A DNA stretch of 64,000 bases from Halobaculum sp. MBLA0147 (GTDB taxonomy: Archaea > Halobacteriota > Halobacteria > Halobacteriales > Haloferacaceae). Where the stretch lies: the NCBI RefSeq assembly GCF_041361345.1, contig NZ_JBGKAD010000001.1, forward strand, positions 1,550,001 through 1,614,000, read 5' to 3'. The position numbers and the translations under genes are program-made. Below the pieces are notes generated by a model. The model was not told the DNA's origin. It saw nothing but the letters and a program-made list of their open reading frames with translations, and did no database searches. Shown here piece by piece: positions 42,990 to 58,507 of the stretch (within the stretch, counting starts at the first letter, position 1; every line of letters begins with the position of its first letter).

Positions 42990-43204
42990 CGCGACGCTCG
43001 TGGGCAGAGACTGTCGGAGCGGTGGTCGGCCGGTGCGGCGTGGTGCGGAGCGGCGTGGTCGCGGAGGCAGGGCGGAGCGGGACGGATCGGCGTGGTCGCG
43101 GAGCGGTGCGGTTGCGGTTGCGGGACGGAGTGGGACGGAGCGGCGTGGTCACGGAGCGGTGCGGTTGCGGAGGCGGGGCGGTTGCGGTGGCGGCGCGGCG
43201 CGGT
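42990..43204 (+). repeat. Degenerate G-rich repeat array
   Basis: Irregular repeats of GCGGAGCGGxGTGGTCGCGG and GAGCGGTGCGGTTGCGG on the plus strand. A shorter array of the same words precedes the second copy of the double-palindrome element (about 58330-58388), so the array and element travel as a unit. Confidence 0.65.
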
Positions 43205-43325
43205 CACCGCCAGCACACCGACCGCGAGCGCGCCCCGCGGGGCGCGCTCGCGGCCCTTTTTGATCGAGCTTTTTTCCTCGGGTGGCCGCCGCAGGCGGCC
43301 ACCCCGAGGAGTGAAAAAGGTCGGT
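43205..43325. repeat. Double-palindrome element, copy 1
   Basis: A 121-base element almost identical to 58389-58507. Palindrome 1 (43224-43251) is a perfect 28-base inverted repeat, GCGAGCGCGCCCCG and its complement. Two T-tracts follow on the plus strand (T5 at 43257-43261, T6 at 43270-43275). Palindrome 2 (43276-43309) pairs CCTCGGGTGGCCGCC with GGCGGCCACCCCGAGG. A5 at 43314-43318 gives T5 on the polD-sense strand. It could act as a bidirectional terminator or be a mobile repetitive element. Confidence 0.85.
43250..43276 (+). terminator. Possible plus-strand terminator (GC hairpin followed by T5 and T6)
   Basis: The perfect GC hairpin ending at 43251 is followed by CCCTTTTTGATCGAGCTTTTTT. 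Archaeal RNA polymerase stops at oligo-T; the hairpin resembles an intrinsic terminator. Which plus-strand transcript would end here is unknown. Confidence 0.4.
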
Positions 43326-43340
43326 GCCGAAGAAGGTCGT

Positions 43341-46300
43341 TTACATGAAGTCCTCGATGCTCGTCGGCTTGTTGTGGTCGTTCTCGAAGATGGACTCCAA
43401 CGAGCGGTCGAGGATCTCCAGTCGTTGTTTCGTGTACTCGCGACAGCCGAACTCCTCGGCGACCTCGCGGGCGGTGTCCATGTACTTGTTCACCGACCCG
43501 CGGTGGACGGTGAGGGTCATGTCGCCGCCACACTCCCGGCAGTCGCCGGTCAGCGGCATCCGGCGGTACTTCTCGCCGCAGTCGAGACACCGCGTCTCCT
43601 GGCTGGAGAACGCCCGGAGGTTGCCGATCAGGTCCGGGAGGAAGTGGTACTCGATGACCCGTTCGGCCACGTCCGTCTCGTCGACGGCCCGCAGCGTCCG
43701 CGAGAGGTTCAGTTGCGCGTCCATCTTGTCCATCATCGAGCCGAGCGTCTTGTACGCCGACAGCGCCGGCCCCATGTGGATGTCCGTCGTGTCGTGAGTG
43801 TGGTCGAACCCGTGGTACTGGTCGTCCGTCCCCAGCGTCTCCTCGGCGATCTGCACGTCGACCGCCTCCGGGTCCGCCTGCTCGCGCGTCGCCTCGTAGA
43901 ACTCGCGCGGGTACCGATCCACGACGTCCATGTTGTGCGCCTCGTCGTCGATCTCCGTCGGGTCGATCCGCGAGGACATCACCAAGGGTGCGTCCATCGA
44001 GTTGTGGGCGTACAGCCAGTTTGCGGTGAAAACCGGGTCCCCGCCGACCTGGAGATCGTACAGGTACCCCTCGTAGTCGGAGCGTTCGACGTTCTCGACT
44101 CTGAGGTACGCGAGATCGCCGTCGACGAGAGGTCGGATCTCGTCGAGAAGCTTCCTAACTCGATTTGCCGTCTCTTCGTTGGCTCGTTGAGCGACGAGTG
44201 TCTCGACATCCGCCACCATCTCGTCGAGTTTCTCCAGCGAGACGTTCTCTCGACGCTTGAGGTACTTCGGGATCGCCTGCTTCACTCCGTCGAGACCCGA
44301 CTCTCTGATCTCGCGTAGTGCGTCGGGAATCGTAACTGTGAGACTCTTCGGACGGTACGGTTCCTCGCCATCGAGAATGCGACGGAGCGGGTTGTCGTCG
44401 CGCCCGCCAGAGACATTGATATTGTAGATCGGCTGACGAGGGTCATCCCGTTCCCGGTAGGAAATGTTGGCGACGATACCGAGTCGGTGAAGTAGAAAGA
44501 CGATCCCGTCTTTCAGTTGCTCGCTCGTCGTGTGGAACGCGACGGTCGTGTGGTTGTCGTCGCTCGTCTCGCTCCCGTCACCGGTTTTGAATCCGCGGAG
44601 GAACGCGAGCGCAACTCGGTCTGGAGCTGTACGGATACACTGTGGAACCACCTTCTCAGAAGAGTCGTAGCTGTCTGCGTCGACGAAACCGAGACTGTAC
44701 AGGAGCTCTCTGAACACCGTCGGGAGGCCTAGCCTGTACGCGTCGTTCGACCAACTCACGTTCGGGTCGTGACCGAGCGTTCGTTCGGTGATTGCCCGTG
44801 CCCGCTCAATCACTTCCTCGTCTGCATTGTTGATGGTCGGTTGAACGCTCGATGTGGATCCCTCGGCCGCGAACAGCCCGAGCAACCACGCAAACTCTTC
44901 GTCCACCTCAACGTGGCGGTCGATTCCGTCGGAGGAACCCTTGATCCCGACGGTGAGGTCCTCGGGTAGAGTGGTTCCCGACTCGTCGGTAATGTCGTCG
45001 AGCGTGTCAGCGTGGACCTTGCGCTTCGAGAGCCGGTAGGCGAGACCACCGTCGAACGCCTCGCGCGTGTCACTTCCCCACTCTGCGTCGTTCCAGACGT
45101 GTTCTAAGTACTCCTCAACGTCGTCGTCGATGAACACGTAGGGGTCACCGAGACGGTCGAGTAAGTCGAGTGTCTTCGACTCCGTCCCGATATCCAGCGA
45201 TTCCGGCGCGAGGATCAGATCTCCCTCAGACAGTTCCTCGCCAGCGACCTCCTCAATCTCACCGTCGTACCGGAACAGGCTGTGATGCTCTGTGACTTCG
45301 AGCGAGCGGCCGAATTGCGTCTCGATACGGACGAGGGACGTGTCGTCTGCTGCCTCGTAACGGATTGCCTTCTCTATCGGACGCAGCGAGGCGCGGTGTG
45401 AGTCGTCGAATGCGTACGTTCGCCACCCCTCACTGCGGCACGTCTTCTTTCGGAACTTGCCGTCGCGTTCGACAGGGCTGTTGAGTCGGTCCCAGAACTC
45501 GTCGAACGTAGTGAACTCGACATCTCCGTCTGGCCCGACCGCCACGAGCCGGGAATCCTCGGCGACACTTCCCCCTCGCTGGTCCGGCAGGTACGTCTTC
45601 GAGAAATTCAGTAGTCCATCCATGAGAAGCATAACACAATCCTCATCACCATCGCAATTTCGCCGCTTGGCCGCGTGGAAGTACGGGTGCGCGTACCCCA
45701 CGGCGGCCGAGGTGAACCCGACGACGCGGCCGACGACGGCGGCGCTCGTGTGGGGGGCCATCCCGAAGACGAGTTCGCCGACGAGGTCGTCGCGTTCGTT
45801 CACCTCGTAGAACGGCTCCAGGTCGTAGAACCGCTCCAGGAGGTCGTCGACGAAGTCGGCAGTCCGCATCATGTGCTGGGCGGCACCCTCCGAGAGCACC
45901 ACGTCCTGGACCTTCAGCTCCACCAGTTGGTCGTCGTGGCGCAGCGGTTCACCGTCGACGTCCGTCTCGTACCCCAACTGTCGGAAGTGGTCGGCCGTCA
46001 CGTCCAACTCCTCCGGTCGGACGGCCGTCACCGGCAGGTCCGTCATGTCGTACCGGACGGTGCCGTCCTTGAACGCCGAGACGCCGTGTTTCGCGCGGAG
46101 CACACCCTTCGCGAGCGGTTCCGGCGTCTTGTCCGCCGAGGAGAGCCCCTTGACTCCCTTGAGGATCTCGTAGCTCCCCTCGCGTTCGCCGATCTCGTCG
46201 AGCGCCGCCGCGAGACGCTCGTTGAGATCGATGGTGAACTGGTCGGGGCTCTCGACCTCGCGGTCACACCGGTCGCAGACGACCCGCCCCGACTCGTCGG

Positions 46301-48503
46301 GTTCGTGGACGGTGCCACACTCCCGACACTCGTAGTACGGCTCCGTGTGCGCGCCACAGTCCGGACAGGCGACCCGGTAGGTGTGGGTGCCACAGTCGGG
46401 ACAGGCGCGCTCGCCGACCCGCGCCTCGATCACGCCGCGGCCGGCGTCGGTGCGGGTGCGCGCCGCCTCGCCGACCGACCGTTGACTCCCACCGGCCTCG
46501 CCGATGGGGAACAGCGTGTGGACCGCCGGCGACAGTTCGCGCGACTCCGACTTCTCCGGGCGGCCCATCCGGTTACCGATCCGCGTCGGCGCCCGCTCGC
46601 GCACGCGGAACGGCGCGATCTCGTTCACCGCACGGATCGCGTTGTCGCCGCCGTCGTACTCGCGGGCCGACTCGGAGAGGTCGGCCAGCGTCCACTCGCG
46701 GGCGAGTCCGTCGGAGACGCCCAGTTGTCGCAGGAGTGGGCGGAACCCCGGCACGCGCAGCGCGTCCGGCGTCTGGGTGTGTTCGACGAGGAGGCGTTCG
46801 AGCACGCGCCGTGTCGTCTCCGTCCGCTCGAAGACGAGCACGTCGCCGGTCACCTCCCCGTCGGCGACGGCCGCGGCGAGCGCGTCCACGTCGGCGACGG
46901 ACACGTCGTGCCAGAGGTAGGTGTACGCCGGGTGCAACGGCGCGTCGTAGTCGGTCGCCCACGACAGCGCCTCGTCGGGCGTCGGCTCGTCAACGGAGAC
47001 CGTCGGGTCGTCGCGCAGCGCCTGCACGTCCGCGCCCGCGTCGGCGAACTCCTGGACCCACCACTCGACGGTGTAGGAGGCCGGGGCGAGCGGGTGGTTG
47101 TTCTCGACGAACTCCCCGTAGTTGACGAGGTACTCGCCCAGGTCGAGGATCTCCTCGACGCCGTTGCGCACGTCGAGTGCCTCCTGTGGGTCGTCGATCC
47201 GACGCACGTCCCCGTTCGCCAGTCGGACGGTCGGCCCCTCGATGGAGTCGACGGGGACGACGCCCGCCGCCTTCCCGGGGCGTTCGGTCTTGATCTGTGT
47301 CCCGGTCGCGAGGAAGTCGTCGACGAGGTGCATCGTCGCCGGGTGGACCCCGGCGGTGGCGAACCCGTGGTTGCGCGCCCGACCGTACCGGAGTCTGAAC
47401 CCCCCGGACTCCGACGGGTGACCGAACACCGGGCGGCCCGCGATCAGGTCCCGCAGGAACTTCTCGCTCGGCTCCGCACGCGGCGGTGTGTCGGCCGCTC
47501 CGCCGTCGCTCTCGTCGCCGTCGTCTCCGTCGCCCGACCCCTCGGCGTCCGTGTCGCCGCTCTCGGTTCCCTCGGCGTCCGTCTCGTCCGCTTCGTCGGT
47601 GGTGTCGTCCCCGTCCTCTCCGTCCGCGTCCTCCTCCCCGCCGTCGTCCTCGTCGGCGTGGTCGTCGTACGTCCCGTCGATCAGGTCCTGGAGCCACGGC
47701 CACTCCACCTCGTCGAGTTGGCGGGTGTACCGCTGGATCTTCGGGGCCTTCAGCGCGATCCCCTCCGCGAGCACGAGACACATCCCGCCGCGGGCGGCGT
47801 TCGTGTCGATCCGTTCCAGGTCGCGGAAGCCGTCGACCTCCCCGTCGGAGGTCGCCTCCCCGTCGAGCATGATCGGGGTGTGTTCCGTGATGAACTTCGT
47901 CTCCTTCGCCTTCGGGGTGTACTGGAGGCCCGTCTCGGAGTCGTAGAGGTCGATCTCCTCGGCGTAGCGCTCGACCTCGTCGTCGCGCGGCCGGAACTCT
48001 TCGACGTCCAACAGCGAGCGGGCGTAGTCGGCGACCAACACGGACAGCGCCTGTGCGGTCCCGCCCGCCGAGCGGATCGGCCCGGCGTAGTAGACGTTGA
48101 CGAACTCCGTCCCGTCGTCGTTCTCGAGGATCTCCACGCGGTCGATCCCCTCGATGGGGGCCGCGACGACACCCTCCGTCAGGAGCGCGACCGCCGTCCG
48201 GACGGCCCCCTCGACCTTCCCGGCACGAGAGTCGAAGTCGCCGACGGTCCCCTCGACGAAGTCCGTGACGAGTTCGAGCGCCGCCTCCTCGCGGGACATC
48301 TCGCCCTCCAGTTCGCGGACGCGCTCGGCGACGCCGTCGATGCCGAGGATGTTCTCGACTCTGTCGGCCATGTCGCGGGCGACCGGGATCTCGATCTCCG
48401 TCTCCGGGTCGCGGCCGCGCTCCTTCGCGGCGGTCGCGCGGGCGAAGGCCTCGTCCAGTTCGTCCTCGATCCGTTCGAAGTAGCGCTCGTCGTCGGGTCT
48501 CAC
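43341..48503 (-). CDS. polC: DNA polymerase D large subunit (DP2) with in-frame intein
   Basis: Catalytic subunit of the archaeal replicative polymerase PolD. The precursor is 1720 aa, and after removal of a 523-residue intein the mature protein is 1197 aa. N-terminal strings MADRVENILGIDGVAERVRE and YYAGPIRSAGGTAQALSVLV are diagnostic. An acidic low-complexity insertion lies at about residues 280-345. Zinc-binding clusters are CPDCGTHTYRVACPDCGAHT, YECRECGTVHE and near the C-terminus CLDCGEKYRRM with CRECGGDM. The catalytic metal-binding motif RNCDGDED (Asn949, Asp951, Asp953) lies 26 residues before the intein. GTG start 48503. The small subunit DP1 is not in the window. Confidence 0.95.
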   Translation of the reverse strand: MRPDDERYFERIEDELDEAFARATAAKERGRDPETEIEIPVARDMADRVENILGIDGVAERVRELEGEMSREEAALELVTDFVEGTVGDFDSRAGKVEGAVRTAVALLTEGVVAAPIEGIDRVEILENDDGTEFVNVYYAGPIRSAGGTAQALSVLVADYARSLLDVEEFRPRDDEVERYAEEIDLYDSETGLQYTPKAKETKFITEHTPIMLDGEATSDGEVDGFRDLERIDTNAARGGMCLVLAEGIALKAPKIQRYTRQLDEVEWPWLQDLIDGTYDDHADEDDGGEEDADGEDGDDTTDEADETDAEGTESGDTDAEGSGDGDDGDESDGGAADTPPRAEPSEKFLRDLIAGRPVFGHPSESGGFRLRYGRARNHGFATAGVHPATMHLVDDFLATGTQIKTERPGKAAGVVPVDSIEGPTVRLANGDVRRIDDPQEALDVRNGVEEILDLGEYLVNYGEFVENNHPLAPASYTVEWWVQEFADAGADVQALRDDPTVSVDEPTPDEALSWATDYDAPLHPAYTYLWHDVSVADVDALAAAVADGEVTGDVLVFERTETTRRVLERLLVEHTQTPDALRVPGFRPLLRQLGVSDGLAREWTLADLSESAREYDGGDNAIRAVNEIAPFRVRERAPTRIGNRMGRPEKSESRELSPAVHTLFPIGEAGGSQRSVGEAARTRTDAGRGVIEARVGERACPDCGTHTYRVACPDCGAHTEPYYECRECGTVHEPDESGRVVCDRCDREVESPDQFTIDLNERLAAALDEIGEREGSYEILKGVKGLSSADKTPEPLAKGVLRAKHGVSAFKDGTVRYDMTDLPVTAVRPEELDVTADHFRQLGYETDVDGEPLRHDDQLVELKVQDVVLSEGAAQHMMRTADFVDDLLERFYDLEPFYEVNERDDLVGELVFGMAPHTSAAVVGRVVGFTSAAVGYAHPYFHAAKRRNCDGDEDCVMLLMDGLLNFSKTYLPDQRGGSVAEDSRLVAVGPDGDVEFTTFDEFWDRLNSPVERDGKFRKKTCRSEGWRTYAFDDSHRASLRPIEKAIRYEAADDTSLVRIETQFGRSLEVTEHHSLFRYDGEIEEVAGEELSEGDLILAPESLDIGTESKTLDLLDRLGDPYVFIDDDVEEYLEHVWNDAEWGSDTREAFDGGLAYRLSKRKVHADTLDDITDESGTTLPEDLTVGIKGSSDGIDRHVEVDEEFAWLLGLFAAEGSTSSVQPTINNADEEVIERARAITERTLGHDPNVSWSNDAYRLGLPTVFRELLYSLGFVDADSYDSSEKVVPQCIRTAPDRVALAFLRGFKTGDGSETSDDNHTTVAFHTTSEQLKDGIVFLLHRLGIVANISYRERDDPRQPIYNINVSGGRDDNPLRRILDGEEPYRPKSLTVTIPDALREIRESGLDGVKQAIPKYLKRRENVSLEKLDEMVADVETLVAQRANEETANRVRKLLDEIRPLVDGDLAYLRVENVERSDYEGYLYDLQVGGDPVFTANWLYAHNSMDAPLVMSSRIDPTEIDDEAHNMDVVDRYPREFYEATREQADPEAVDVQIAEETLGTDDQYHGFDHTHDTTDIHMGPALSAYKTLGSMMDKMDAQLNLSRTLRAVDETDVAERVIEYHFLPDLIGNLRAFSSQETRCLDCGEKYRRMPLTGDCRECGGDMTLTVHRGSVNKYMDTAREVAEEFGCREYTKQRLEILDRSLESIFENDHNKPTSIEDFM
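44001..45569 (-). other. PolD large-subunit intein with LAGLIDADG homing endonuclease
   Basis: Protein-splicing element occupying residues 979-1501 of the precursor. It starts with Ser (GG/SVAEDSRLVAV) and ends YAHN, with Ser as the first residue of the C-extein (SMDAPLV), so splicing uses serines at both junctions. Block B is EVTEHHSLF (intein residues 91-99). The endonuclease motifs are LLGLFAAEG (229-237) and LRGFKTGDG (324-332). Block F/G is YEGYLYDLQ to NWLYAHN. The DNA is less GC-rich than the exteins. Both endonuclease motifs keep their acidic residue (Glu236 and Asp331), so activity is possible. Confidence 0.93.
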
Positions 48504-48777
48504 GCTGTCTCCCCCGGAACCGGCGACACCCGGACGACACCCACCGGCGTCGCCGGCTCTCGTCGTGTCACGTCAGCCTACTGCGCCCCGCCTCGACAAA
48601 AGTCGTGTGCCTCGGGCGACGCCCGCCACCACCTTCGCGGCGACACCACGTCACTGTCGAGACCGGTCGCGTCGGAGCAGTGCGACGACCGCAGCGTCGG
48701 GCCCGGAACCGGCCGCATCCGGCCGCGTCCCCGCGTCGTCCCCGGGTTTCCACTTCCACTCCGCGTGCCACCGCCAT

Positions 48778-48786
48778 CTTAAATAC
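48778..48786 (+). promoter_or_regulatory. rpa3 TATA box
   Basis: CTTAAATAC is a strong archaeal TATA box about 62 bases upstream of ATG 48844, giving a 5' leader of roughly 35 bases. Confidence 0.65.
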
Positions 48787-48827
48787 CATCGGGAACCAAC
48801 CACCGTACGCCTCCCACTCGAAACACC

Positions 48828-48833
48828 AGGAGG
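48828..48833 (+). promoter_or_regulatory. rpa3 Shine-Dalgarno site
   Basis: AGGAGG lies 10 bases before ATG 48844. A leadered mRNA with a strong site is unusual beside the many leaderless genes of this window and fixes the start. Confidence 0.7.
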
Positions 48834-48843
48834 CAGGAGAACC

Positions 48844-49773
48844 ATGGCAGACTTGCGAACCCACGCGGAAGAGATCAGTGCGCAGTTCTCGGACCACATA
48901 GACGTCGGTCCCGACGAGGTACACGAACGACTGGAGACGCTCGTCGACGAGTACAGCGTCCCCGTCGAGGAGGCGCGTCGCAGTGTCACGAGTTCCTACC
49001 TTGACGAGGCGGGACTCGAGCGCGACGACCTCGCACCCGGCGGGAGCGAGGAGACGCTCGTCGGCGACATCGAGGCGGACGAGGAGTGGGTGGACCTGGA
49101 GGTCCAGGTGGCGGACCTCTGGGAGCCACGCCACGAGTCCATCGCACAGGTCGGCCTGCTCGGCGACGAGTCGGGGACGATCAAGTTCGTCGCGTTCGCG
49201 ACGAGCGACCTCCCGGAACTGGAGGAGGGTGCCAGCTACGCGCTCGGCAACGTCGTCACCGACGAGTACGAGGGCGACTACTCGGTGAAGCTCAACCGGA
49301 CGACGACGATCACGGAGCTCGACGAGCCCGTCGAGATCGGCGAGGACGCCGTCGAGATCGAGGGCGCGCTCGTCGACCTCCAGTCCGGCTCGGGGCTGAT
49401 CAAGCGGTGTCCCGAGGAGGGGTGTACGCGGACCCTCCAGAACGGCCGGTGTTCCGAACACGGCCAGGTCGACGGGGAGTTCGACCTCCGCGTCAAGGCG
49501 GTGTTGGACGACGGCGACACCGTCCAGGAGGTGATCTTCGACGAGGAGGCGACGGAGCGGCTCGCGGGGATCGACCTCGCGGAGGCCAAACAGATGGCCC
49601 AGGACGCACTCGACACCACCGTCGTCGAGGAGGAGATCGCGACCACCATCACCGGTCGCTACTACCGGGTGCGAGGCCCGGAGTTCGGCCGGTACGTGCT
49701 GGCCGACGAGTTCACCGAGCTGAGCGAGGCACCGGACGCCGAACAGACGCTGATCCGAGCGAGGTCGATCTGA
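48844..49773 (+). CDS. rpa3: Replication protein A, Rpa3-type single-stranded DNA-binding protein
   Basis: Binds single-stranded DNA in replication and repair. It has 309 aa. The N-terminal helical part (DEVHERLETLVDEYSVPVEE) precedes an OB fold (WVDLEVQVADLWEPRHESIA, QVGLLGDESGTIKFVAFATS, DEYEGDYSVKLNRTTTITEL). A C4/C3H zinc finger, CPEEGCTRTLQNGRCSEHG, leads to a second OB-like domain (FDLRVKAVLDDGDTVQEVIF). Coupling to an Rpap-type gene without a following phosphoesterase gene matches the rpa3-rpap3 operon of Haloferax rather than rpa1-rpap1-rpe. Confidence 0.9.
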   Translation: MADLRTHAEEISAQFSDHIDVGPDEVHERLETLVDEYSVPVEEARRSVTSSYLDEAGLERDDLAPGGSEETLVGDIEADEEWVDLEVQVADLWEPRHESIAQVGLLGDESGTIKFVAFATSDLPELEEGASYALGNVVTDEYEGDYSVKLNRTTTITELDEPVEIGEDAVEIEGALVDLQSGSGLIKRCPEEGCTRTLQNGRCSEHGQVDGEFDLRVKAVLDDGDTVQEVIFDEEATERLAGIDLAEAKQMAQDALDTTVVEEEIATTITGRYYRVRGPEFGRYVLADEFTELSEAPDAEQTLIRARSI

Positions 49774-49774
49774 C

Positions 49775-50401
49775 ATGAGCAGTGTTCCATCCCGCGAAGT
49801 CGCCCGCCGCGTCTTCGCGACCGAGTACAACGACGGGAGTCACACGTTCAAAGAGTCCGAGGACGAGCGCGCGCCGCTGTACCTGCTGCTCCCGACGGGG
49901 GAGCGGGCCAACCGCGTGTTCTTCGTGGGGACGCTCACCGAGACGGAGGATCTCGGCGACGACAGCGAGTACTGGCGTGGTCGCATCGTCGACCCCACGG
50001 GGACGTTCTTCGTGTACGCCGGCCAGTACCAGCCCGAGGCGGCCTCGGCGCTACGGGACCTGGAGCCGCCGGCGTACGTCGCGGTCGTCGGCAAGCCCCG
50101 GACGTTCGAGGCGGACGACGGGACGATCAACGTCTCCGTCCGTCCGGAGTCCATCTCCGAGGTGTCCGCGGCCGCACGCGACCGCTGGGTGGTCGAGACC
50201 GCCGAGCGGACCCTCGACCGGATCGAGGCGTACGACGACGAGGCCAACGAGTACGGGCGGATGGCTCGCGAGCGATACGATCTCCCGACGGAACGCTACC
50301 GGGAGGCGACCGTCGCCGCCCTGGAGTCGCTCGACGAGGGGGACGAACTCGGCGGCGACACCGACGCCGCCGACGAGACGGAACCCGAGCCGACGCCGTG
50401 A
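49775..50401 (+). CDS. rpap3: RPA-associated protein Rpap3
   Basis: Partner of Rpa3, encoded one base after its stop codon. It has 208 aa: PSREVARRVFATEYNDGSHT, YLLLPTGERANRVFFVGTLT and WRGRIVDPTGTFFVYAGQYQ form an OB-fold domain, then LRDLEPPAYVAVVGKPRTFE and INVSVRPESISEVSAAARDR. A helical C-terminus (RWVVETAERTLDRIEAYDDE) and an acidic tail follow. In Haloferax these proteins form a complex with their cognate RPA and are needed for DNA damage resistance. Confidence 0.88.
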   Translation: MSSVPSREVARRVFATEYNDGSHTFKESEDERAPLYLLLPTGERANRVFFVGTLTETEDLGDDSEYWRGRIVDPTGTFFVYAGQYQPEAASALRDLEPPAYVAVVGKPRTFEADDGTINVSVRPESISEVSAAARDRWVVETAERTLDRIEAYDDEANEYGRMARERYDLPTERYREATVAALESLDEGDELGGDTDAADETEPEPTP

Positions 50402-50481
50402 GGTGACCCCCGAACGGCGCTATCACCGCCGATAGTCGTCTGACGAACGTTGAAGTAGCGAGCGACCACAACGTGTGCCAA

Positions 50482-50940
50482 ATGGGCAAGAAGGACAAGA
50501 CGATCTCCTTCCGGGTGAGCCAGGAGGCGTTCGAGTCACTCCAGGAGATCGCCGACGAGCGCGACCTGTCGCTGTCGGCGCTGTTCCGCGACTACGTCGA
50601 CGCGCTGGTGGCACACGACGGCCAGGTGGAGGTGGTGCCAGACCACGCGGTCGACGAGTCGGCGGCCGAGGACGACGAGCCGACGTTCCCGCCGCGCGTC
50701 ACCGTCCCGAAGGGGTTCGTCCGCGAACACGAACGGCTGGAGTTGGAGGCCGACCACCTCCGCGAGCAACTGGAGGAGTACCGCCAGTACGTCACGCACC
50801 TCCACGACAGACTCGACGACGAGGACGACGAGGACGTGGTGTTCTTGGAGGAGTTGGACGGCGACGGCGGCGACGAGGAGTCACTCGACGACGGCTTCGA
50901 GATCGAGACGGACGAGCGTTACCGCGTCGGGCGCGAGTAG
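50482..50940 (+). CDS. Ribbon-helix-helix regulator with coiled coil
   Basis: A 152-aa protein. The N-terminal 45 residues, KTISFRVSQEAFESLQEIAD then LSLSALFRDYVDALV, form a CopG/RHH DNA-binding domain. An EREHERLELEADHLREQLEE-like helical region (residues 85-115) suggests a coiled-coil oligomerisation segment, and the tail is very acidic. ATG 50482 is preferred over GTG 50473. It follows rpap3 by 80 bases on the same strand, the same neighbour arrangement as in other haloarchaea. Targets unknown. Confidence 0.78.
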   Translation: MGKKDKTISFRVSQEAFESLQEIADERDLSLSALFRDYVDALVAHDGQVEVVPDHAVDESAAEDDEPTFPPRVTVPKGFVREHERLELEADHLREQLEEYRQYVTHLHDRLDDEDDEDVVFLEELDGDGGDEESLDDGFEIETDERYRVGRE

Positions 50941-51002
50941 TCGCACTGCGAGTCGCGGGACGCCGTACCGTCTCACCCGCGTGGTCGACGACGGCCGAGG
51001 AC

Positions 51003-51458
51003 TCAGCCGGTGAGCGCGTCGCGTGCCTCGCGGGCCTTCCGGGCCATCTCGTCGTCACCCTCCACTTCCGCGAGCGACTCGACGGCCTCCAGCGTGCGGA
51101 CCGCCGAGTCGAGAAAGGAGAGTACGTCCCCGGAGTAGGCGTACAGCATGTAGTCGTCGCCCATCACGTCGACGATGGCGTCCGGACCGAACCCCTGTGC
51201 GCGCAACTCCAGGAGGTACTGGACGAACTTCCGCTCCGGGTGGCCGCAGTAGGGGTTGTCCTGACAGTCGCAGTCGAGGAAGTCCTCGGCGAACTCGAGC
51301 AGCCGGTCGCGGGTGGACTCGTCGACCTCCGCGAGCCCGTCGCCGGTGAACACCAGATCCAGCGTCGCCCCCTTGAACGCACCCTTCGGCACGTTCGTGT
51401 CGAGTTGAGAGGCGATCTGTCGGTGGTTCTTCAGGTAGATCTTGTCCGTGATCGCCAC
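51003..51458 (-). CDS. Conserved haloarchaeal protein with a Cys-rich centre
   Basis: A 151-aa protein from GTG 51458. It begins AITDKIYLKNHRQIASQLDT, then VPKGAFKGATLDLVFTGDGL. A cysteine cluster, FLDCDCQDNPYCGHPERKFV (four Cys/His-type ligands), suggests zinc or iron-sulfur binding. The C-terminal half is helical (QYLLELRAQGFGPDAIVDVM; DDYMLYAYSGDVLSFLDSAV). It reads like a strongly conserved family in haloarchaea, but I cannot assign a function. Convergent with the RHH gene. Confidence 0.7.
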   Translation of the reverse strand: MAITDKIYLKNHRQIASQLDTNVPKGAFKGATLDLVFTGDGLAEVDESTRDRLLEFAEDFLDCDCQDNPYCGHPERKFVQYLLELRAQGFGPDAIVDVMGDDYMLYAYSGDVLSFLDSAVRTLEAVESLAEVEGDDEMARKAREARDALTG

Positions 51459-51575
51459 TGGTGGGACTCGATAGGCTCGTTCGGTACAAGAACGCGACGG
51501 TGTCGTCGCTCGGGCGGCCACGGGGGCCGTCGCGAGGCTCGCGGCCGATCTCGGGTGATCGGACCCTCGTCGCAC

Positions 51576-52910
51576 TCAGGCGGCCGACCCGCCGAACACG
51601 TCCGCGTCCTCGGTGTCGTCCGCCGTCGACGGACCGTCCGTGTCGGCGGTCTGTGCGTCTGCGCCGGCCGCCTCGACCAGCGGGAGGTCGACGACGAACA
51701 CGGCGCCACCGTCACTCGCCCGCTCCGCGTCGAACTGCGGGACACCCTCCCGGTCGTGCGCCCACACCTCGCCGCCGAGTCCGTCGACGATCGTGTCGAC
51801 GACGTTGAGTCCCGCCGCCGTCCCCGGTTCGTCGTGGTCGAACAGCGTGCGGTCCGCTGTGGGGCCGAGCCCGGGGCCGTCGTCGGCGACGGTGATCCGT
51901 GCCACGTCGTCGACGCACTCGAGCCCGACGCGGACGACCGGATCGTCGCGGTCGTGGTGTTCGACGGCGTTCTCCAGCAGGTTGTCGACCACCGGCCGCA
52001 GTGACTCGTTGGCTCGCACGGACAACCCCTCCGTGAGCGCCGTCTCGACGGTGAGCCCACCGAACGAGCGGCGTGCGGAGTCGACCGCCGGTCGGAGCAG
52101 TTCGGCCGGGTCGACCGGCGTCTGCTCGGCGTCGCCCGCGACCGCCTCCACGACTGCACGGGCCTGCTCCGTCCGGTCGACGACGGTCTGGGCCCGTTCC
52201 TTCAGCGTCGCCGCCGTCTCCGGCTCGCCGACACGCTCGGCGTAGCCGGCGATCACGTTCGCGTCGTTGCGCACGTCGTGGCGTAACATCCCGTTGACGA
52301 ACGCCAAGGCGTCCCGGACGCGCGCCACCTCGCGAGCCTCGCGTCTGGCACGCGCTCGGTACACGCCGCCGACGGCGCCCGCGAGGTAGCCCGCGCCGAG
52401 CGTCGTCGCCAGCAGGAACGTCGGCTCCGAGACGACGCGTCCCTCGGCGAGCCGGATCAGGATCGTCCCGGTCACCGCCAGCCCGAACGCCAGACTGCCG
52501 CCGACGCCGAACAGCGTCACCGTGCCGCGGTCCGTCGTGTCGAACGCCGACCGCGCGAGCCAGACGCCGACGCCGACGACGCCGAGTGCCAGCGTCCCGT
52601 CGAGTGCGAACGCCGCGAGCGGACCCGACAACTGGTCGATGGCGACCGTCTCGCGGACCAGGTGGTGGTACGCCGTCAGCCCGACGAGCGTCACGCCGTA
52701 CAACAGCGTCACGGCGACTGGCGGGTCGAGGCAGACCCCGTCGTCCGTCCCGCGAGTGCCGGACCCGATCCGACCCGCGTGCCCGTGGTCGTCGATCGCG
52801 GTCGCGTGTCTGTCACTAGAGTCGGACGGGCCGTCCGCGTCCGGTCGCTCGCGCGGGTCCGCTCCCCGCACGGATCGCTCGTCGTCTCGTGTACCCCGCT
52901 CGTCCCCCAT
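51576..52910 (-). CDS. Membrane-bound histidine kinase
   Basis: A 444-aa kinase. After an acidic leader of about 60 residues come about four membrane spans (PPVAVTLLYGVTLVGLTAYH; LAAFALDGTLALGVVGVGVW; VTLFGVGGSLAFGLAVTGTI; FLLATTLGAGYLAGAVGGVY). The H-box is NGMLRHDVRNDANVIAGYAE with His at about 210. The ATPase has VDNLLENAVEHHDRDDP, ITVADDGPGLGPTADRTLFD and AAGLNVVDTIVDGLGGEVWA. ATG 52910 is selected because CTTTTCGA (about 52936-52943, minus strand) lies about 28 bases before it. No adjacent regulator; the nearest is the HalX protein at 55236. Confidence 0.83.
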   Translation of the reverse strand: MGDERGTRDDERSVRGADPRERPDADGPSDSSDRHATAIDDHGHAGRIGSGTRGTDDGVCLDPPVAVTLLYGVTLVGLTAYHHLVRETVAIDQLSGPLAAFALDGTLALGVVGVGVWLARSAFDTTDRGTVTLFGVGGSLAFGLAVTGTILIRLAEGRVVSEPTFLLATTLGAGYLAGAVGGVYRARARREAREVARVRDALAFVNGMLRHDVRNDANVIAGYAERVGEPETAATLKERAQTVVDRTEQARAVVEAVAGDAEQTPVDPAELLRPAVDSARRSFGGLTVETALTEGLSVRANESLRPVVDNLLENAVEHHDRDDPVVRVGLECVDDVARITVADDGPGLGPTADRTLFDHDEPGTAAGLNVVDTIVDGLGGEVWAHDREGVPQFDAERASDGGAVFVVDLPLVEAAGADAQTADTDGPSTADDTEDADVFGGSAA

Positions 52911-53045
52911 TCGATCGACAGACTCGGGCAGCCGTCGAAAAGCTGGCGATGCGTCCGCCACGTGGCCGATCGTCGCCGTCGAGACGACGCCGCGACACTG
53001 GGTGGACGCCCGTCGTGTGAGTCCGTCTCGCCCTCGTCGGGAGTC

Positions 53046-53055
53046 GTAACGTACT
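53046..53055 (+). promoter_or_regulatory. Possible tRNA-His promoter
   Basis: GTAACGTACT lies about 33 bases before the tRNA 5' end, within the range for archaeal tRNA TATA boxes. Confidence 0.35.
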
Positions 53056-53083
53056 TGTCCGGAACGGCTGTACCGGTGAGTGT

Positions 53084-53155
53084 GTCCGGGTTGGGGTAGT
53101 GGTATCCTTCAGCCTTGTGGGGGCTGAGACGCGGGTTCAATTCTCGCACCCGGAC
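53084..53155 (+). tRNA. tRNA-His (anticodon GTG), G-1 encoded
   Basis: The cloverleaf can be folded by eye. Acceptor TCCGGGT pairs with ACCCGGA, D-arm GGGT...TCCT, anticodon stem CAGCC/GGCTG with loop TTGTGGG (anticodon GTG), variable AGAC, T-arm GCGGG/CTCGC with loop TTCAATT. The extra 5' G (53084) faces the discriminator C (53155), the G-1:C73 identity pair of tRNA-His. No CCA is encoded and no intron is present. One D-stem pair (T-T) is a mismatch. Confidence 0.93.
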
Positions 53156-53258
53156 CTCCTCTCGACGCGACTCGGTCAGTCGTGGGTGTGCCGACGCTCG
53201 TCGTCCGGCGTGTCGCGTCTCGACTACCACCTACCGGGCGGTGTCGGCCGCGCACCGA

Positions 53259-54428
53259 CTACCGTCTCCCGGGCGGTGTCGGTCGCTCGCCGACCCCGCC
53301 GACGCGACCGCCGCGACGGATGATGTCGAACGCGGTCATCAGGTCCGTCCGCGAGACGAGGCCGGTCAGGTCCCCGTGCTCGTCGACGACGACCAGTCGG
53401 CCGACACCACGTCGTTGCATCGCCTGGAGCGCGTCCATCGCGTCCGTGTCTGGCCGCACGCTCGCGACCTCCGTCGCCATCACGTCGCTCACCGTGTAGG
53501 CGCTCTGTTCGACCTCGCGGACGCGCTCGGTGTCCTCCAGTGTCACCATCCCGACGAGGTGGCCGCCGTCGATCACGGGGTAGCCGGTGTGACGCTCTCG
53601 GACCATCTTGTCGAGCAGCGCCGCGACGGAGGTGTCGGGGGAGACCGTCTTCACCGCCGGTGCGGGCGTCATCACGTCCCCGACACGCACGTCCTGGAGT
53701 GCGGCCTGGATCGCGGTCTGTTGGGCCTCTCCGGAGGCGGCGACGTAGACGAACAACGCCAGTCCGACGATCAGCCAGTCGCGGCCGAGTAGTCCGAGCA
53801 GGCCGAGTCCGACCGCGAACACCTTCCCCACGTCGGCGGCGATCTTCGTCGCCTTCGGGTACGAGTAGCTGCTGGCCAGCAGGGCGCGCAACACCCGACC
53901 GCCGTCCATCGGGAAGCCGGGCAGCATGTTGAACGCCGCGAGCACCACGTTCGTCGCCGCGAGGTACGCGAGGACGAACGCGACCGGAGCCGGCGACGGG
54001 ACCGCCAGGACGACTGCCCCGAAGCCGACGCCGAGCAGGACGCTCACTGCCGGGCCGGCGACGGCGATCACCAACTCCGCGCGCCAGTCGTCCGGGTTCT
54101 CCTCGAACTGCGCGACGCCGCCGAACAGCCACAGCGTGATCGACTCGATCCCGTAGCCGTACCGGCGGGCCGTCAACGAGTGGCCGAACTCGTGACACAG
54201 CACGGAGACGAACAGCCCGACGGCGGCGACGGCGCCGAGCACGAGTGGACGGAGGCCGCCGTCGAGTGTCCCCGTCGCGATCGACAGCCCGAACAGGTCG
54301 TTGAGCGGGGCGACGAGCGCGCCCACCTGCTGGCCGATCAGCCAGGCGAACACCGGCAGGATCACCAGGAACGTCCAGTTCAACTGGATCGGGATCCCGG
54401 CGACGCGGCCGACACGGATGCCACGCAT
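53259..54428 (-). CDS. Site-2 protease family (M50) metalloprotease with CBS domains
   Basis: A 389-aa intramembrane zinc protease. HExxH is seen as LCHEFGHSLTARRYG (His79, Glu80, His83), and the third ligand region is AAFNMLPGFPMDGGRVLRAL. About six spans surround them (LVILPVFAWLIGQQVGALVA; LVIAVAGPAVSVLLGVGFGA; LIVGLALFVYVAASG). From about residue 245 two CBS motifs follow (VRVGDVMTPAPAVKTVSPDT; YTVSDVMATEVASVRPDTDA), which may sense adenine nucleotides. Such proteins release membrane-tethered regulators. The cluster of Pro/Gly/Arg at the C-terminus is odd. Confidence 0.9.
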   Translation of the reverse strand: MRGIRVGRVAGIPIQLNWTFLVILPVFAWLIGQQVGALVAPLNDLFGLSIATGTLDGGLRPLVLGAVAAVGLFVSVLCHEFGHSLTARRYGYGIESITLWLFGGVAQFEENPDDWRAELVIAVAGPAVSVLLGVGFGAVVLAVPSPAPVAFVLAYLAATNVVLAAFNMLPGFPMDGGRVLRALLASSYSYPKATKIAADVGKVFAVGLGLLGLLGRDWLIVGLALFVYVAASGEAQQTAIQAALQDVRVGDVMTPAPAVKTVSPDTSVAALLDKMVRERHTGYPVIDGGHLVGMVTLEDTERVREVEQSAYTVSDVMATEVASVRPDTDAMDALQAMQRRGVGRLVVVDEHGDLTGLVSRTDLMTAFDIIRRGGRVGGVGERPTPPGRR

Positions 54429-54545
54429 ACCTCGAACTCCGTCCCGGCGGGGGATAAACTCGTGTGGTGAGTCGGGTCCTCGGCTGTCGTGTGAGCGCTC
54501 CCACCGACCCAGGGCTTGAAACGGTCGCCCGACCCATCGACGGGT

Positions 54546-55181
54546 ATGGGAGACACCGCAGACACGAACGACGGCACGGACACGACCGGCGAGACGGGGC
54601 CCGCAGAGACGGGTGGAGCCGAGACGGCTACGGAGACGGGTGGAGCCGAGACGGCTACGGAGACGGGTGGAGCCGAGACGACTGCGGAGACGGGGAGAGC
54701 AGAGACGACTGCGGAGACGGGGGGAGCAGAGACGGCTACGGAGACGGGGGCAGCAGAGACGACTGCGGAGACGGGGGGAGCAGAGACGACGGCGGGTGGG
54801 AGGTCGACCACACCGCCGACCCCGGTCGTCGTCGACGGCGACGACGTGACCTACGAGGCCGTCGACGCGGCGGCGGGGCTGTCGAAGGGTGTGTTGCTCG
54901 ACGAGTCGGACGGCGCCCCACACTTCGCGCTCCGACGGTTCGTCCTCGACCCGGGCGCCGAGGTACCGCGCCACACCAACGCCGTCGAACACGAACAGTA
55001 CGTGCTCTCTGGCGAGTACACGGTCGGGATCGACGACACGGAACACACCGTGACGGCCGGTGACGCACTCCTGATCCCCGCGGGTGTCGTCCACTGGTAC
55101 CGCAACGAGAGCGACGAGCCCGGCGCGTTCCTCTGTGCGGTCCCGAACGGAGACGACACCATCGAACTCGTCGAGGAGTAG
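54546..55181 (+). CDS. Cupin-domain protein with N-terminal tandem repeats
   Basis: A 211-aa protein from ATG 54546. Residues 1-22 are acidic, 23-85 are six 9-residue repeats of the type GAETATETG and a partial one, and about 100-205 form a single cupin: HFALRRFVLDPGAEVPRHTN, VEHEQYVLSGEYTVGIDDTE, AGDALLIPAGVVHWYRNESD. Metal ligands would be the two His and Glu of the first motif and His of the second. The repeats are probably a disordered, highly acidic arm. Function unknown; related stand-alone cupins bind small organic ligands. Confidence 0.75.
   Translation: MGDTADTNDGTDTTGETGPAETGGAETATETGGAETATETGGAETTAETGRAETTAETGGAETATETGAAETTAETGGAETTAGGRSTTPPTPVVVDGDDVTYEAVDAAAGLSKGVLLDESDGAPHFALRRFVLDPGAEVPRHTNAVEHEQYVLSGEYTVGIDDTEHTVTAGDALLIPAGVVHWYRNESDEPGAFLCAVPNGDDTIELVEE
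54615..54797 (+). repeat. 27-base coding tandem repeat
   Basis: Six full 27-base units (54615-54641, 54642-54668, 54669-54695, 54696-54722, 54723-54749, 54750-54776) and a partial one encode (G/R/A)AET(A/T)(T/A)ETG. The first two units are identical in DNA; later ones alternate GCTACG with ACTGCG. Confidence 0.88.
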
Positions 55182-55235
55182 TCCGCGAGCGAACCACGAG
55201 CGGCACCCGTCGTCGACGCGTGTGGCGGGTCGCGG

Positions 55236-55811
55236 TCAGATCCGGCCGAGTGTCCGCCGGATGTCGCCGACGTCCATCTCGTCCAAGGCGGCGTCCGTCT
55301 CGTCGGCGACGGCCTCGTACCGCTCGCGGAGTCGGTCGTACGCCTCCGAGTCGGCCAACTCCGAGGGCGAGAGGTGTTCCGACAACAGCGCGCACTTCCG
55401 GGCGAGCGTGAACTCCTCGCGGACGGCGTCCTCGTACGTCCGGAGCCGGGCGAGGGTGTGTGTCACCTCCAGCAGCTCCTCGTGGTGGACCGGCTTCACG
55501 AGGTAGGTGTCGAACGGCAGCGACACCACGTCCTCGTCGGGCGAGACGGCCGTCACCATCCCGACGGCACAGTCGTAGCCGGCGTCACGGACGTGTCGCA
55601 ACACGTCGTCGCCCGAGAACCCCGGCATCCGCCGGTCCAACAACACCACGTCCACGTCCTCGTCGACCGCCGCGACCGCCTCCTGGCCTCCGGCGGCGAC
55701 CGTCGGCTCGAACGTCTCGTCCGTCGACAGGTGCCCGGCGTACGTCTCTGCCACGTCCCGCTCGTCGTCGACGACGAGGACGGACACCGTCTCCCCAGTT
55801 CCGGTACCCAT
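55236..55811 (-). CDS. HalX-type response regulator
   Basis: A 191-aa regulator. The receiver domain (residues 8-120) has VSVLVVDDERDVAETYAGHL acidic pocket, phospho-acceptor Asp59 in VDVVLLDRRMPGFSGDDVLR, MVTAVSPDED and the conserved Lys in DTYLVKPVHHEEL. The C-terminal helical HalX domain (EEFTLARKCALLSEHLSPSE; YDRLRERYEAVADETDAALD) is found only in haloarchaeal regulators and has no DNA-binding motif. ATG 55811. It is a candidate partner for one of the histidine kinases in this window. Confidence 0.87.
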   Translation of the reverse strand: MGTGTGETVSVLVVDDERDVAETYAGHLSTDETFEPTVAAGGQEAVAAVDEDVDVVLLDRRMPGFSGDDVLRHVRDAGYDCAVGMVTAVSPDEDVVSLPFDTYLVKPVHHEELLEVTHTLARLRTYEDAVREEFTLARKCALLSEHLSPSELADSEAYDRLRERYEAVADETDAALDEMDVGDIRRTLGRI

Positions 55812-55965
55812 ACGGACGCCAGTTGGCCAGCACCAGTCTTCACACTTTCGTCGCTCACTGGGTGTACCGTCCGGTCGCCGTCGTGGAGACGACGGTCGGA
55901 GGCACCACACCGCTCGCGACCCGAACGTATCAAGTGGCCGCTGCGCGTACCGGAGACGACGACAC

Positions 55966-58002
55966 GTGTCCGAACAACTCCCAGCGGTCGGGACGGTGTT
56001 CCTCCACGAGCGCGACGACGACTTCCTGGTGGTCGTCCAGTCGGACGGCGACCGGCGGCTCCGTGGCGTCCTCGAACTCAAGGAGACGGACGCCGGCCCG
56101 CGCCCGCGGAAGTTCCGCGTGAAGCGCGGCTCCGGCGAGGAACCCCGCCAGCCCGACCAGTTCGTCGAGTTGGTCCGCGCCGCCGACCGCATCCGCATCT
56201 CCGAGCAGACCGGCGCCGGCGCCCGCGACCGGCTGCAGGCGACACTCGACGCCTACCAACTGGAGGCGGTCCAGGTGCGGACCTGCCGGTACTGTGCCAA
56301 CGCGGGGCGGTACTCCCCGATCACCGCCGACACCGCGGTGAAAGCCGACCGCGACTACATCTGTCGCGACTGCGCGAAGGAGGAACTCGACCGGGAACTC
56401 GCCTACAAGGGTGAGTTCACCAGCGCCGCCGCCGACCGCTTAGAGGAGTTGCTGTACGAGACGGGCGACCTCGAACGGATCACCAACCTCCTGCAGGGGA
56501 ACCTCGACCCCGAGTTGACGAAGTTCGACACGATCTCGGCGACGGTCGACGAGGTCGACCCCGTCGCCACCGCCGATCTCGATCTGCACCCGGCGTTGGC
56601 CGACCGACTCACCGGGCGGTTCGAGGAACTGCTCCCGGTGCAGTCGCTGTCGGTGCGCAACGGCCTGTTGGACGGCGACGACCAGCTCGTCGTCTCCGCG
56701 ACGGCGACCGGGAAGACGCTCGTCGGCGAACTCGCGGGGGTGAACCGGGCGTTGAACGGGAAGGGGAAGCTGTTGTTCCTCGTCCCGCTGGTGGCGCTGG
56801 CCAACCAGAAACACGAGGACTTCGAGGAGGAGTACGGCGACGTGGTGGACGTGACCCTCCGGGTGGGTGCCTCGCGGATCAACGACTCCGGCGAGCGGTT
56901 CGACCCGAGCGCGGACGTGATCGTCGGCACCTACGAGGGGATCGACCACGCGCTGCGGACCGGCAAGGACATGGGCGACGTGGGCACCGTCGTGATCGAC
57001 GAGATCCACACCCTGAAGGAGGGTGAACGGGGCCACCGCCTCGACGGGATGATCTCGCGGCTGAAACACTACTGTGAGAGCCGTGGCACCGGCGCGCAGT
57101 GGGTGTATCTCTCGGCGACCGTTGGGAACCCGGAGTGGTTGGCCCAGCGGCTCCAGGCCCGTCTCGTCGAGTTCGAGGAGCGTCCGGTGCCGATCGAACG
57201 GCACGTCACCTTCGCGGACGCCCGCGAGAAGGTCCAAATCGAGAACCGACTGGTGAGTCGGGAGTTCGACGCGAAGTCTTCGAAGGGGTACCGCGGCCAG
57301 ACCATCGTGTTCACCAACTCCAGACGGCGCTGTCACGAGATCAGTCGCAAACTGGACTACGACTCCGCGCCGTACCACGCGGGACTCGACTACGGAGAAC
57401 GGAAACGGGTCGAGCGGCAGTTCGGCGACCAGGATCTGGCGGCGGTCGTCACCACGGCGGCGTTGGCCGCCGGGGTGGACTTCCCGGCCTCGCAGGTGAT
57501 CTTCGACTCGCTGGCGATGGGGATCGAGTGGCTCTCCGTCCAGGAGTTCGAGCAGATGCTCGGCCGGGCCGGGCGGCCGGACTACCACGACGAGGGGAAG
57601 GTGTACGTCCTCGTCGAGCCGGACTGTACGTACCACAACTCGATGGAGATGACGGAAGACGAGGTGTCGTTCAAGCTCCTGAAGGGAGAGATGGAGGACG
57701 TGACGACGGTGTACGACGGGCCGGCCGCCGCCGAGGAGACGCTGGCGAACGTCACCGTCGCCGGAGAACGGGCCAAGCGACTCAACGACCGGATGATCGG
57801 CGACGTGCCGACGAAACACGCGGTCGGGAAGCTGCTGGAGTGGGGGTTCATCGACGGGCTCGAACCGACCGACCTCGGGCGGGCGGTGACGACACACTTC
57901 CTCGCACCGGACCAGGCGTTCCGGTTGCTCGACGGGATCAGACGGGGTGACGAGCCGTACCAGATCGTCGCGGACGAAGAGTTGGCCGACGAGGAGTTGT
58001 GA
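55966..58002 (+). CDS. DEAD/DEAH-box helicase with N-terminal zinc ribbon
   Basis: A 678-aa haloarchaeal superfamily 2 helicase from GTG 55966. The N-terminal domain (1-100) contains LPAVGTVFLHERDDDFLVVV and KFRVKRGSGEEPRQPDQFVE. A zinc ribbon follows with CRYCANAGRYSPI and YICRDCAKEEL (residues 105-138). The motor has Walker A SATATGKTLVGEL (about 243), DEIHTLKEGERGHRL motif II (about 344), VYLSATVGNPEWL motif III, IVFTNSRRRCHEI motif IV, VVTTAALAAGVDFPASQVI motif V and EQMLGRAGRPDYHDEG motif VI, closest to the Ski2-like/Hel308 group. Precise role unknown; DNA repair or RNA metabolism are possible. Confidence 0.88.
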   Translation: MSEQLPAVGTVFLHERDDDFLVVVQSDGDRRLRGVLELKETDAGPRPRKFRVKRGSGEEPRQPDQFVELVRAADRIRISEQTGAGARDRLQATLDAYQLEAVQVRTCRYCANAGRYSPITADTAVKADRDYICRDCAKEELDRELAYKGEFTSAAADRLEELLYETGDLERITNLLQGNLDPELTKFDTISATVDEVDPVATADLDLHPALADRLTGRFEELLPVQSLSVRNGLLDGDDQLVVSATATGKTLVGELAGVNRALNGKGKLLFLVPLVALANQKHEDFEEEYGDVVDVTLRVGASRINDSGERFDPSADVIVGTYEGIDHALRTGKDMGDVGTVVIDEIHTLKEGERGHRLDGMISRLKHYCESRGTGAQWVYLSATVGNPEWLAQRLQARLVEFEERPVPIERHVTFADAREKVQIENRLVSREFDAKSSKGYRGQTIVFTNSRRRCHEISRKLDYDSAPYHAGLDYGERKRVERQFGDQDLAAVVTTAALAAGVDFPASQVIFDSLAMGIEWLSVQEFEQMLGRAGRPDYHDEGKVYVLVEPDCTYHNSMEMTEDEVSFKLLKGEMEDVTTVYDGPAAAEETLANVTVAGERAKRLNDRMIGDVPTKHAVGKLLEWGFIDGLEPTDLGRAVTTHFLAPDQAFRLLDGIRRGDEPYQIVADEELADEEL

Positions 58003-58507
58003 GTCGGGAGAGAGCGCGCCGCCCCACGGTAGTCGTCTCGTGTTCGGGGGAGGGCCGGAGCGTGTGAGTCCGGCCACGACCGCGACACGGACGACGGCGA
58101 CCGTGGGGAACGACGGGCCGTCGCCGCTAGTGAGTACTGGTGACTGTCAGGATTTAACGTTAACTCCCCAGTTCGCAGTTCCGAGAGCCGGCGGCGGTGT
58201 GTCGAGTGGTGGCGGTGGGTCGCCGGGTGGCGTCGGTGGCCGGCCGTGGTGGTGTAGGCGGACAGACGACTGCGCGCGGGCAGGCAGGCGTGCACTCGGG
58301 CGGGCGGCGACTGGTGTGGGAGATCACCCACGAGCGGTGCGGTCGCGGAGGCGGGAGCGGTGCGGTCGCGGAGGCGGTGCGGTGCGGCCACCGCCAGCAC
58401 ACCGACCGCGAGCGCGCCCCGGGGCGCGCTCGCGGCCCTTTTTGGTCGAGCTTTTTTCCTCGGGTGGCCGCCGCAGGCGGCCACCCCGAGGAGTGAAAAA
58501 GGTCGGT
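58003..58507. other. 505-base region between convergent helicase and arlJ genes
   Basis: No gene is supported. TTTAACGTTAA (58153-58163) is the only AT-rich spot and contains the palindrome TTAACGTTAA; it could be a promoter for a plus-strand transcript running through a G-rich array (about 58330-58388) into the terminator-like double-palindrome element at 58389-58507. Confidence 0.6.
58389..58507. repeat. Double-palindrome element, copy 2
   Basis: Matches 43205-43325 over 119 bases with one substitution (TTTTTGGTCG for TTTTTGATCG) and a 2-base deletion exactly at the centre of palindrome 1, which keeps that palindrome perfect (26 bases here). It abuts the arlJ stop codon directly. A5 at 58496-58500 gives T5 in the arlJ sense immediately after the gene. 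Confidence 0.88.

Follow-up and report, generated by a model that had tools for sequence, protein, structure and literature searches.

The window analyzed in this study, a stretch of 64,000 nucleotides from Halobaculum sp. MBLA0147 (contig NZ_JBGKAD010000001.1, positions 1,550,001 to 1,614,000), carries two copies of a non-coding element, each at the 3' end of a minus-strand gene. Facing the first copy is the stop codon of the polD large subunit gene (DP2; 43341..48503, minus strand), which Pfam identified as PolC_DP2 and which contains an intein. The stop codon of the second gene (58508..60265, minus strand) touches the other copy; its product is a T2SSF protein, consistent with ArlJ, and its start codon is a codon-usage call. 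The gene that follows (55996-58002, plus strand) is convergent to arlJ. Gene calls are approximate, as they come from a script that scores codon usage and was trained on the window, in place of a published annotation; the identities of neighbours are from Pfam. The intein of the polD large subunit (43341-48503) carries a LAGLIDADG domain, and the MCM gene beside another copy of the element (L003) also shows an intein end. Tandem repeats are present in the window at 54549-54822 (27 nt) and 19718-20017 (24 nt) and are probably repeat-rich protein segments.

Read from the gene, the stop codon is succeeded by ACCGACC, TTTTT, hairpin 1, AAAAAA, the linker GCTCGAYC, AAAAA, hairpin 2 and a C-rich, degenerate repeat of CCGC words. 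The core of copy 1, from ACCGACC to hairpin 2, occupies 43222..43325 on the minus strand, 15 nt past the polD stop. Its gene-sense T5 (CCTTTTTC; 43314..43318, minus strand) belongs to the lower stem of hairpin 1 and, as a tract that is near invariant in 97 copies and matches a T5C sequence assayed in vivo (PMC7237163), is the likely site of sense termination. Hairpin 1 (43276..43309) is perfect in this copy and is followed by T5 and T6 tracts that would serve transcription in the opposite direction (43257..43275, plus strand), a role suggested by the sequence and by the invariance of the A tracts. These lie just past hairpin 2 (43222..43253), a perfect 32-bp palindrome whose tip differs in almost every copy. 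The C-rich CCGCN/CCGCNN tail extends over 43030..43221 (minus strand; left limit approximate). Copy 2 has the same plan directly 3' of the arlJ stop: core at 58406..58507 and gene-sense T5 at 58496..58500 (both minus strand), hairpin 1 at 58458..58491, opposite-direction T5 and T6 tracts at 58439..58457 (plus strand), a perfect 30-bp hairpin 2 at 58406..58435 and a C-rich tail at approximately 58330..58405 (minus strand). A degenerate partial duplicate of the first bases of the element, (GC)A(CC)GACCTTCTTCGGC, precedes copies at two unlinked genes (window positions 43326-43340 and, at L014, before 1506).

The original prediction, made from the letters of the window, correctly positioned the two copies (whose cores, read on the minus strand, we place at 43325-43222 and 58507-58406), their single substitution (GATCGAGC / GGTCGAGC), the order of palindromes and tracts (GC palindrome, T5, T6, second palindrome, A5) and the distances to the stop codons of polD (15 nt; 43341) and arlJ (0 nt; 58508). 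Comparison of the copies also confirmed that the deleted CG is the exact midpoint of the first palindrome, although we measured lengths of 32 and 30 bases (arms of 16 and 15) rather than 28 and 26. Two features had been missed. The gene-end T5 pairs with the A6, making hairpin 1 a long stem with an A/T foot, and a sense-strand C-rich tail stands behind each of the two window copies. Both strands fold much more stably than their shuffles, with z values of -6.3 to -7.1.

A DNA search and two covariance models agreed on 28 copies in the MBLA0147 genome. The core model separated them clearly, as the weakest copy scored 47.7 bits and the next match (32.9 bits) was the reverse reading of a real copy. 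With 28 unlinked copies that have distinct flanks, duplication or assembly artefact is ruled out, and the case that would have spoken against the original prediction, two copies only and no covariation, clearly fails. The mean mutual identity of the copies is 92%. They differ in the interior of hairpin 1 (CCGCC/GGCGG, GCGCGC, CCGGCGC/GCGCCGG, ATCGGCGC/GCGCCGAT) and at the tip of hairpin 2, and in both places the pairing is preserved. Some copies had individual features. The neighbour gene of L021 has an open frame that enters the element (near 1502) and apparently ends at a TGA within hairpin 1, in a variant that no other copy has. L006 and L028 are facing copies, flanked by a tRNA-Leu gene on one side and a small gene on the other, and the second hairpin of L028 is unrelated to the others, which indicates that hairpin 2 is an exchangeable module.

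Searches with the core covariance model (E<=1e-5) recovered the element in 205 of 243 genomes of the order Halobacteriales, representing 64 of 73 genera. In a sample of 197 genomes from the phylum, all 23 matching genomes among the candidates listed fell within the order. Since lineages outside the order gave far fewer candidates, this is good, if not perfect, evidence that the element is restricted to the haloarchaeal order. Matches per genome ranged widely: 46 in Halorientalis marina, 39 in Halobacteriales archaeon YIM A00010, 13 in Actinarchaeum halophilum, 6 in Haloterrigena sp. H1, 5 in Halorarius halobius and 2 in Natribaculum breve. The core-model search returned no match in Halobaculum litoreum, Halocatena marina or Haloquadratum walsbyi J07HQW1. 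Within the genus, the 91% complete genome G003 had 0 copies, compared to 28, 16 and 22 in sister genomes. Pairs of same-strand, equally scoring copies 148-220 bp apart (G199:C1:1537976 and 1538196; G421:C1:1764875 and 1765023) suggest local duplication. We found no family above the gathering score for the element in Rfam, where only tRNA was matched, nor a description of it in the open-access literature searched.

Copies from other haloarchaea keep this plan with a different sequence. In a plain alignment of 31 diverse sequences, 12 of 20 pairs had compensatory changes, and none of 500 shuffles reached the observed values; the selection on structure proposed at the outset is therefore borne out. 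In 97 diverse copies, whose alignment was fitted to the model and so favours structure, 92.9% of cells pair, changes on both sides affect 285 cells (91 in shuffles), and the covariation score is 0.373, compared to 0.088 in shuffled alignments and at most 0.045 when the partner is slid by 1-3 columns. A hairpin 2 stem of at least 7 bp is present in 56% of copies and 6% of shuffles. The stem foot flips among CGA/TCG, CCA/TGG, GCA/TGC and GGA/TCC across the 97 copies, and adjoining pairs flip freely, whereas the internal loop, the T-A pairs low in the stem and the A5 ahead of hairpin 2 are near invariant. The T/A tracts are, thus, kept as sequence and not only as pairs, and the conservation pattern is that of a fold plus fixed sequence tracts. 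In most other haloarchaea hairpin 1 has an internal loop made up of a 5' UCG strand and a 3' RCUC strand. This sense-strand loop may be a protein site, yet it is closed in the MBLA0147 hairpin 1 and is, therefore, not indispensable. A swapped-strand version of the loop was suspected in L111, and a scripted search gave no clear flips. About nine copies of G028 (L184, L186-L193) form a genome-specific subfamily in which hairpin 1 is forked and topped by an additional GC hairpin.

The placement of the element relative to genes was exact at one end. Part of the set of copies behind the context statistics had also served to build the models that recovered them, though placement was not used in model building. 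A stop codon is at most 6 nt from the 5' end of the element in 96 of 163 copies, and 7-25 nt away in 7 more; in most copies CCTTTTTC is within about 12 nt of the stop, and its T tract is followed by C. Siting at gene ends had been predicted, but a second class that abuts promoters had escaped the first reading: 24 of the 163 copies are 36-55 nt from a divergent start codon (mode 38), 17 of them at 36-39 nt. The first bases past these copies are BRE/TATA-like words (CGAAA..TTTT), as in CGAAGACTTTTCG, TCGAACGCCTTTTGC and GAGGAACGCTTTTAG. As the haloarchaeal promoter motifs are CGAAA and TTWT, and 72% of transcripts are leaderless (PMC4983044), the match of the spacer words to these motifs indicates that the element touches the BRE of the divergent promoter. 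Several of the remaining copies directly adjoin tRNA genes at their 3' ends. Registration is seen only at the fixed end of the element (CGACCTTTTT) and not at the opposite end. The stop codons that adjoin the element are TAA in 40 of 96 cases, versus 35 of 202 in other genes at the same loci. In MBLA0147, 15 of the 18 copies behind a sense gene have a convergent neighbour (background, 38%; P=1e-4), and L016, L017, L018, L027 and probably L007 are located between divergent genes with no called gene ending there. Attachment to polD is not universal: in an independent sample of 79 named polD loci fetched by protein, the element stands at the end of the gene in 5. In all five it is at most 12 nt from the stop, in agreement with the placement of the larger set. 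A further match in this sample (L216) is about 1.1 kb beyond the polD end.

Some sites are common to different genera. The polD site is shared by MBLA0147, G001, G002 and G009, and the site at a 2-oxoacid:ferredoxin oxidoreductase beta (korB-like) gene by MBLA0147, G002, G009, G012, G020 and G062, which span two families. Three genomes of the genus share a trkA-like promoter site, as judged from near-identical spacer words and distance, and three genomes a tRNA-Leu site. L010 and L098 were considered as one shared promoter site for their similar sequence and rejected, because their genes differ (TFE alpha and NifU-like, respectively). Copies are also dispensable, as polD, the korB-like gene and arlJ lack them in some relatives; no remnant was found at the element-free sites of arlJ in six relatives, the korB-like gene in G001 and G003, and polD in G003. 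Identity among the MBLA0147 copies (0.92) exceeds that of same-site copies in sister genomes (0.70-0.86), which points to concerted evolution by gene conversion or recent respreading. We infer that gene conversion or duplication multiplies the element and keeps its copies alike within a genome, and that between genomes copies are gained and lost cleanly.

A rival explanation is a non-autonomous mobile repeat of the REP/MITE type that inserts beside gene boundaries and is tolerated there, with a terminator role that is secondary or absent. The near-identity of the 28 copies, the clean presence or absence of whole copies at orthologous gene ends and the tandem or facing copies are all consistent with this explanation. 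We nevertheless consider it unlikely, because structure and T/A tracts are conserved across the order with compensatory change and some sites are held in common by different genera. Furthermore, the 3.0-Mb main contig has all of the MBLA0147 copies, even though 30% of the 4.29-Mb genome lies outside it, and neither target-site duplications nor terminal inverted repeats were identified in the 28 copies or by reference to six arlJ sites without a copy, whose flanks have diverged. Y1 (IS200/RAYT-type) transposases do not track the element either: none was found in G001 (16 copies) or Actinarchaeum (13 copies), and Haloquadratum has 11 Y1 matches and 0 copies of the element. Nor was the flanking tetranucleotide of REP/RAYT systems (GTRG) found at the hairpin foot, which covaries instead (CGA/TCG, CCA/TGG, GCA/TGC). 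Spread on plasmids or viruses was also rejected, as there was no similar plasmid record and viral contigs had no exact match to one strict pattern. Thus, of the proposal that a REP/MITE-like mobile element had been reused as a terminator, the dispersed repeat family, the siting at gene ends and the terminator-like anatomy stand, and the REP/MITE label is not supported, firmly so for REP/RAYT only.

Based on its anatomy and placement and on one assay of a T5C sequence, the element is probably a haloarchaea-specific, bidirectional transcription terminator/insulator at the outer edge of a transcription unit. In vivo, the assayed sequence stopped 95% of transcription in Haloferax volcanii (Berkemer et al., 2020; PMC7237163). 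The flush, fixed end faces the unit, be it past a stop codon, past a tRNA or just upstream of the BRE where the promoter belongs to a leaderless gene. On leaving the gene, RNA polymerase would then meet the T5C tract 6-12 nt past the stop, and any read-through transcript could fold hairpins 1 and 2. The classical order of an intrinsic terminator is a GC hairpin followed by a T tract. In the MBLA0147 copies this is the order read from outside, where hairpin 2 and CC lead at once to TTTTT. Polymerase arriving from outside would, accordingly, transcribe the GC hairpin, reach the T5 at once and then the second T tract, and could be stopped before it entered the gene in antisense or crossed the promoter. 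Ending the gene's own transcript fits the stop-codon and tRNA placements only; blocking outside transcription is the one role that fits all three, because the flush end faces the protected unit in each. That these sequences terminate transcription in vivo, and that both directions are important, we infer from the same features. Counting against the terminator/insulator reading are the use of the element at only 28 sites in the MBLA0147 genome, the copies between divergent genes without a called gene end and the dispensability of copies.

The position of hairpin 1 is not explained by the T tracts. From either side a T tract precedes it, so a pure T-tract terminator does not need a conserved hairpin 1, and its conservation implies that a fold in read-through RNA or in DNA also matters. 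An RNA fold could shield the 3' ends of mRNAs against 3'-5' exonucleases, a role known for REP elements in some bacteria, and the sense-strand UCG/RCUC loop and the covarying stem beside stop codons and tRNA ends would suit such a function. We regard it as quite improbable as the main role of the element, however, since promoter-abutting copies have no sense gene on their flush side and efficient termination at the T5, which is ahead of the hairpins, would leave the hairpins out of the transcript. At the level of DNA, a protein or a cruciform at the palindromes could form a boundary that separates the chromatin or supercoiling domains of neighbouring genes. The enrichment between convergent genes, the presence also between divergent promoters and the long perfect palindromes with hypervariable tips agree with this idea, but we give it very little weight: stem sequences change freely between and within genomes, which is ill-suited to one sequence-specific binding protein, and the T/A tracts are strictly kept.

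The terminator/insulator reading has partial parallels in known systems. The T-stretch (T5C) terminators of Haloferax volcanii resemble the element in having CCTTTTTC just past the gene end, and hairpins were seen near some of the termination sites (PMC7237163). That study reports the T stretch and individual hairpins; a conserved two-hairpin family with covariation, an internal loop or promoter-abutting siting is no part of it. Bacterial bidirectional intrinsic terminators also have a GC hairpin between A and T tracts and are enriched between convergent genes; the element differs in that its T tract precedes hairpin 1 on both strands and in its second hairpin, C-rich tail, conserved internal loop and promoter-abutting copies. 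Similar to REP/BIME sequences with RAYT transposases, it is a short, dispersed, extragenic palindrome near gene ends, sometimes paired, yet it lacks a matching transposase distribution and has a flush end at stop codons or BREs and order-wide covariation. The MITEs and palindrome-associated repeats of Haloquadratum are, likewise, multi-copy palindromic non-coding repeats of haloarchaea. Unlike them, the element has no copies in Haloquadratum J07HQW1, and no terminal repeats or target duplications were identified for it. A more speculative proposal, to which we assign a modest chance, is that the element acts as a self-spreading boundary cassette. As a structured element it would date back to the early haloarchaea, and a dedicated mechanism would copy it to the precise limits of transcription units (stop codons, tRNA ends, BREs). 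Its invariant UCG/RCUC loop would be read in RNA or single-stranded DNA by a putative haloarchaeal factor, and the cassette would insulate housekeeping genes from neighbouring transcription.

Accounts of haloarchaeal termination signals speak of simple T stretches that lack a conserved fold. A covarying element that occurs throughout the order and sits only a few bases from stop codons and BREs would, to our knowledge, be the first conserved structured class of terminator/insulator in the haloarchaea. Its copies could serve directly as natural bidirectional terminators, and they make transcription interference testable in compact archaeal genomes. The element also poses the question of how short non-coding repeats stay near-identical in one genome and vanish tracelessly in a sister.
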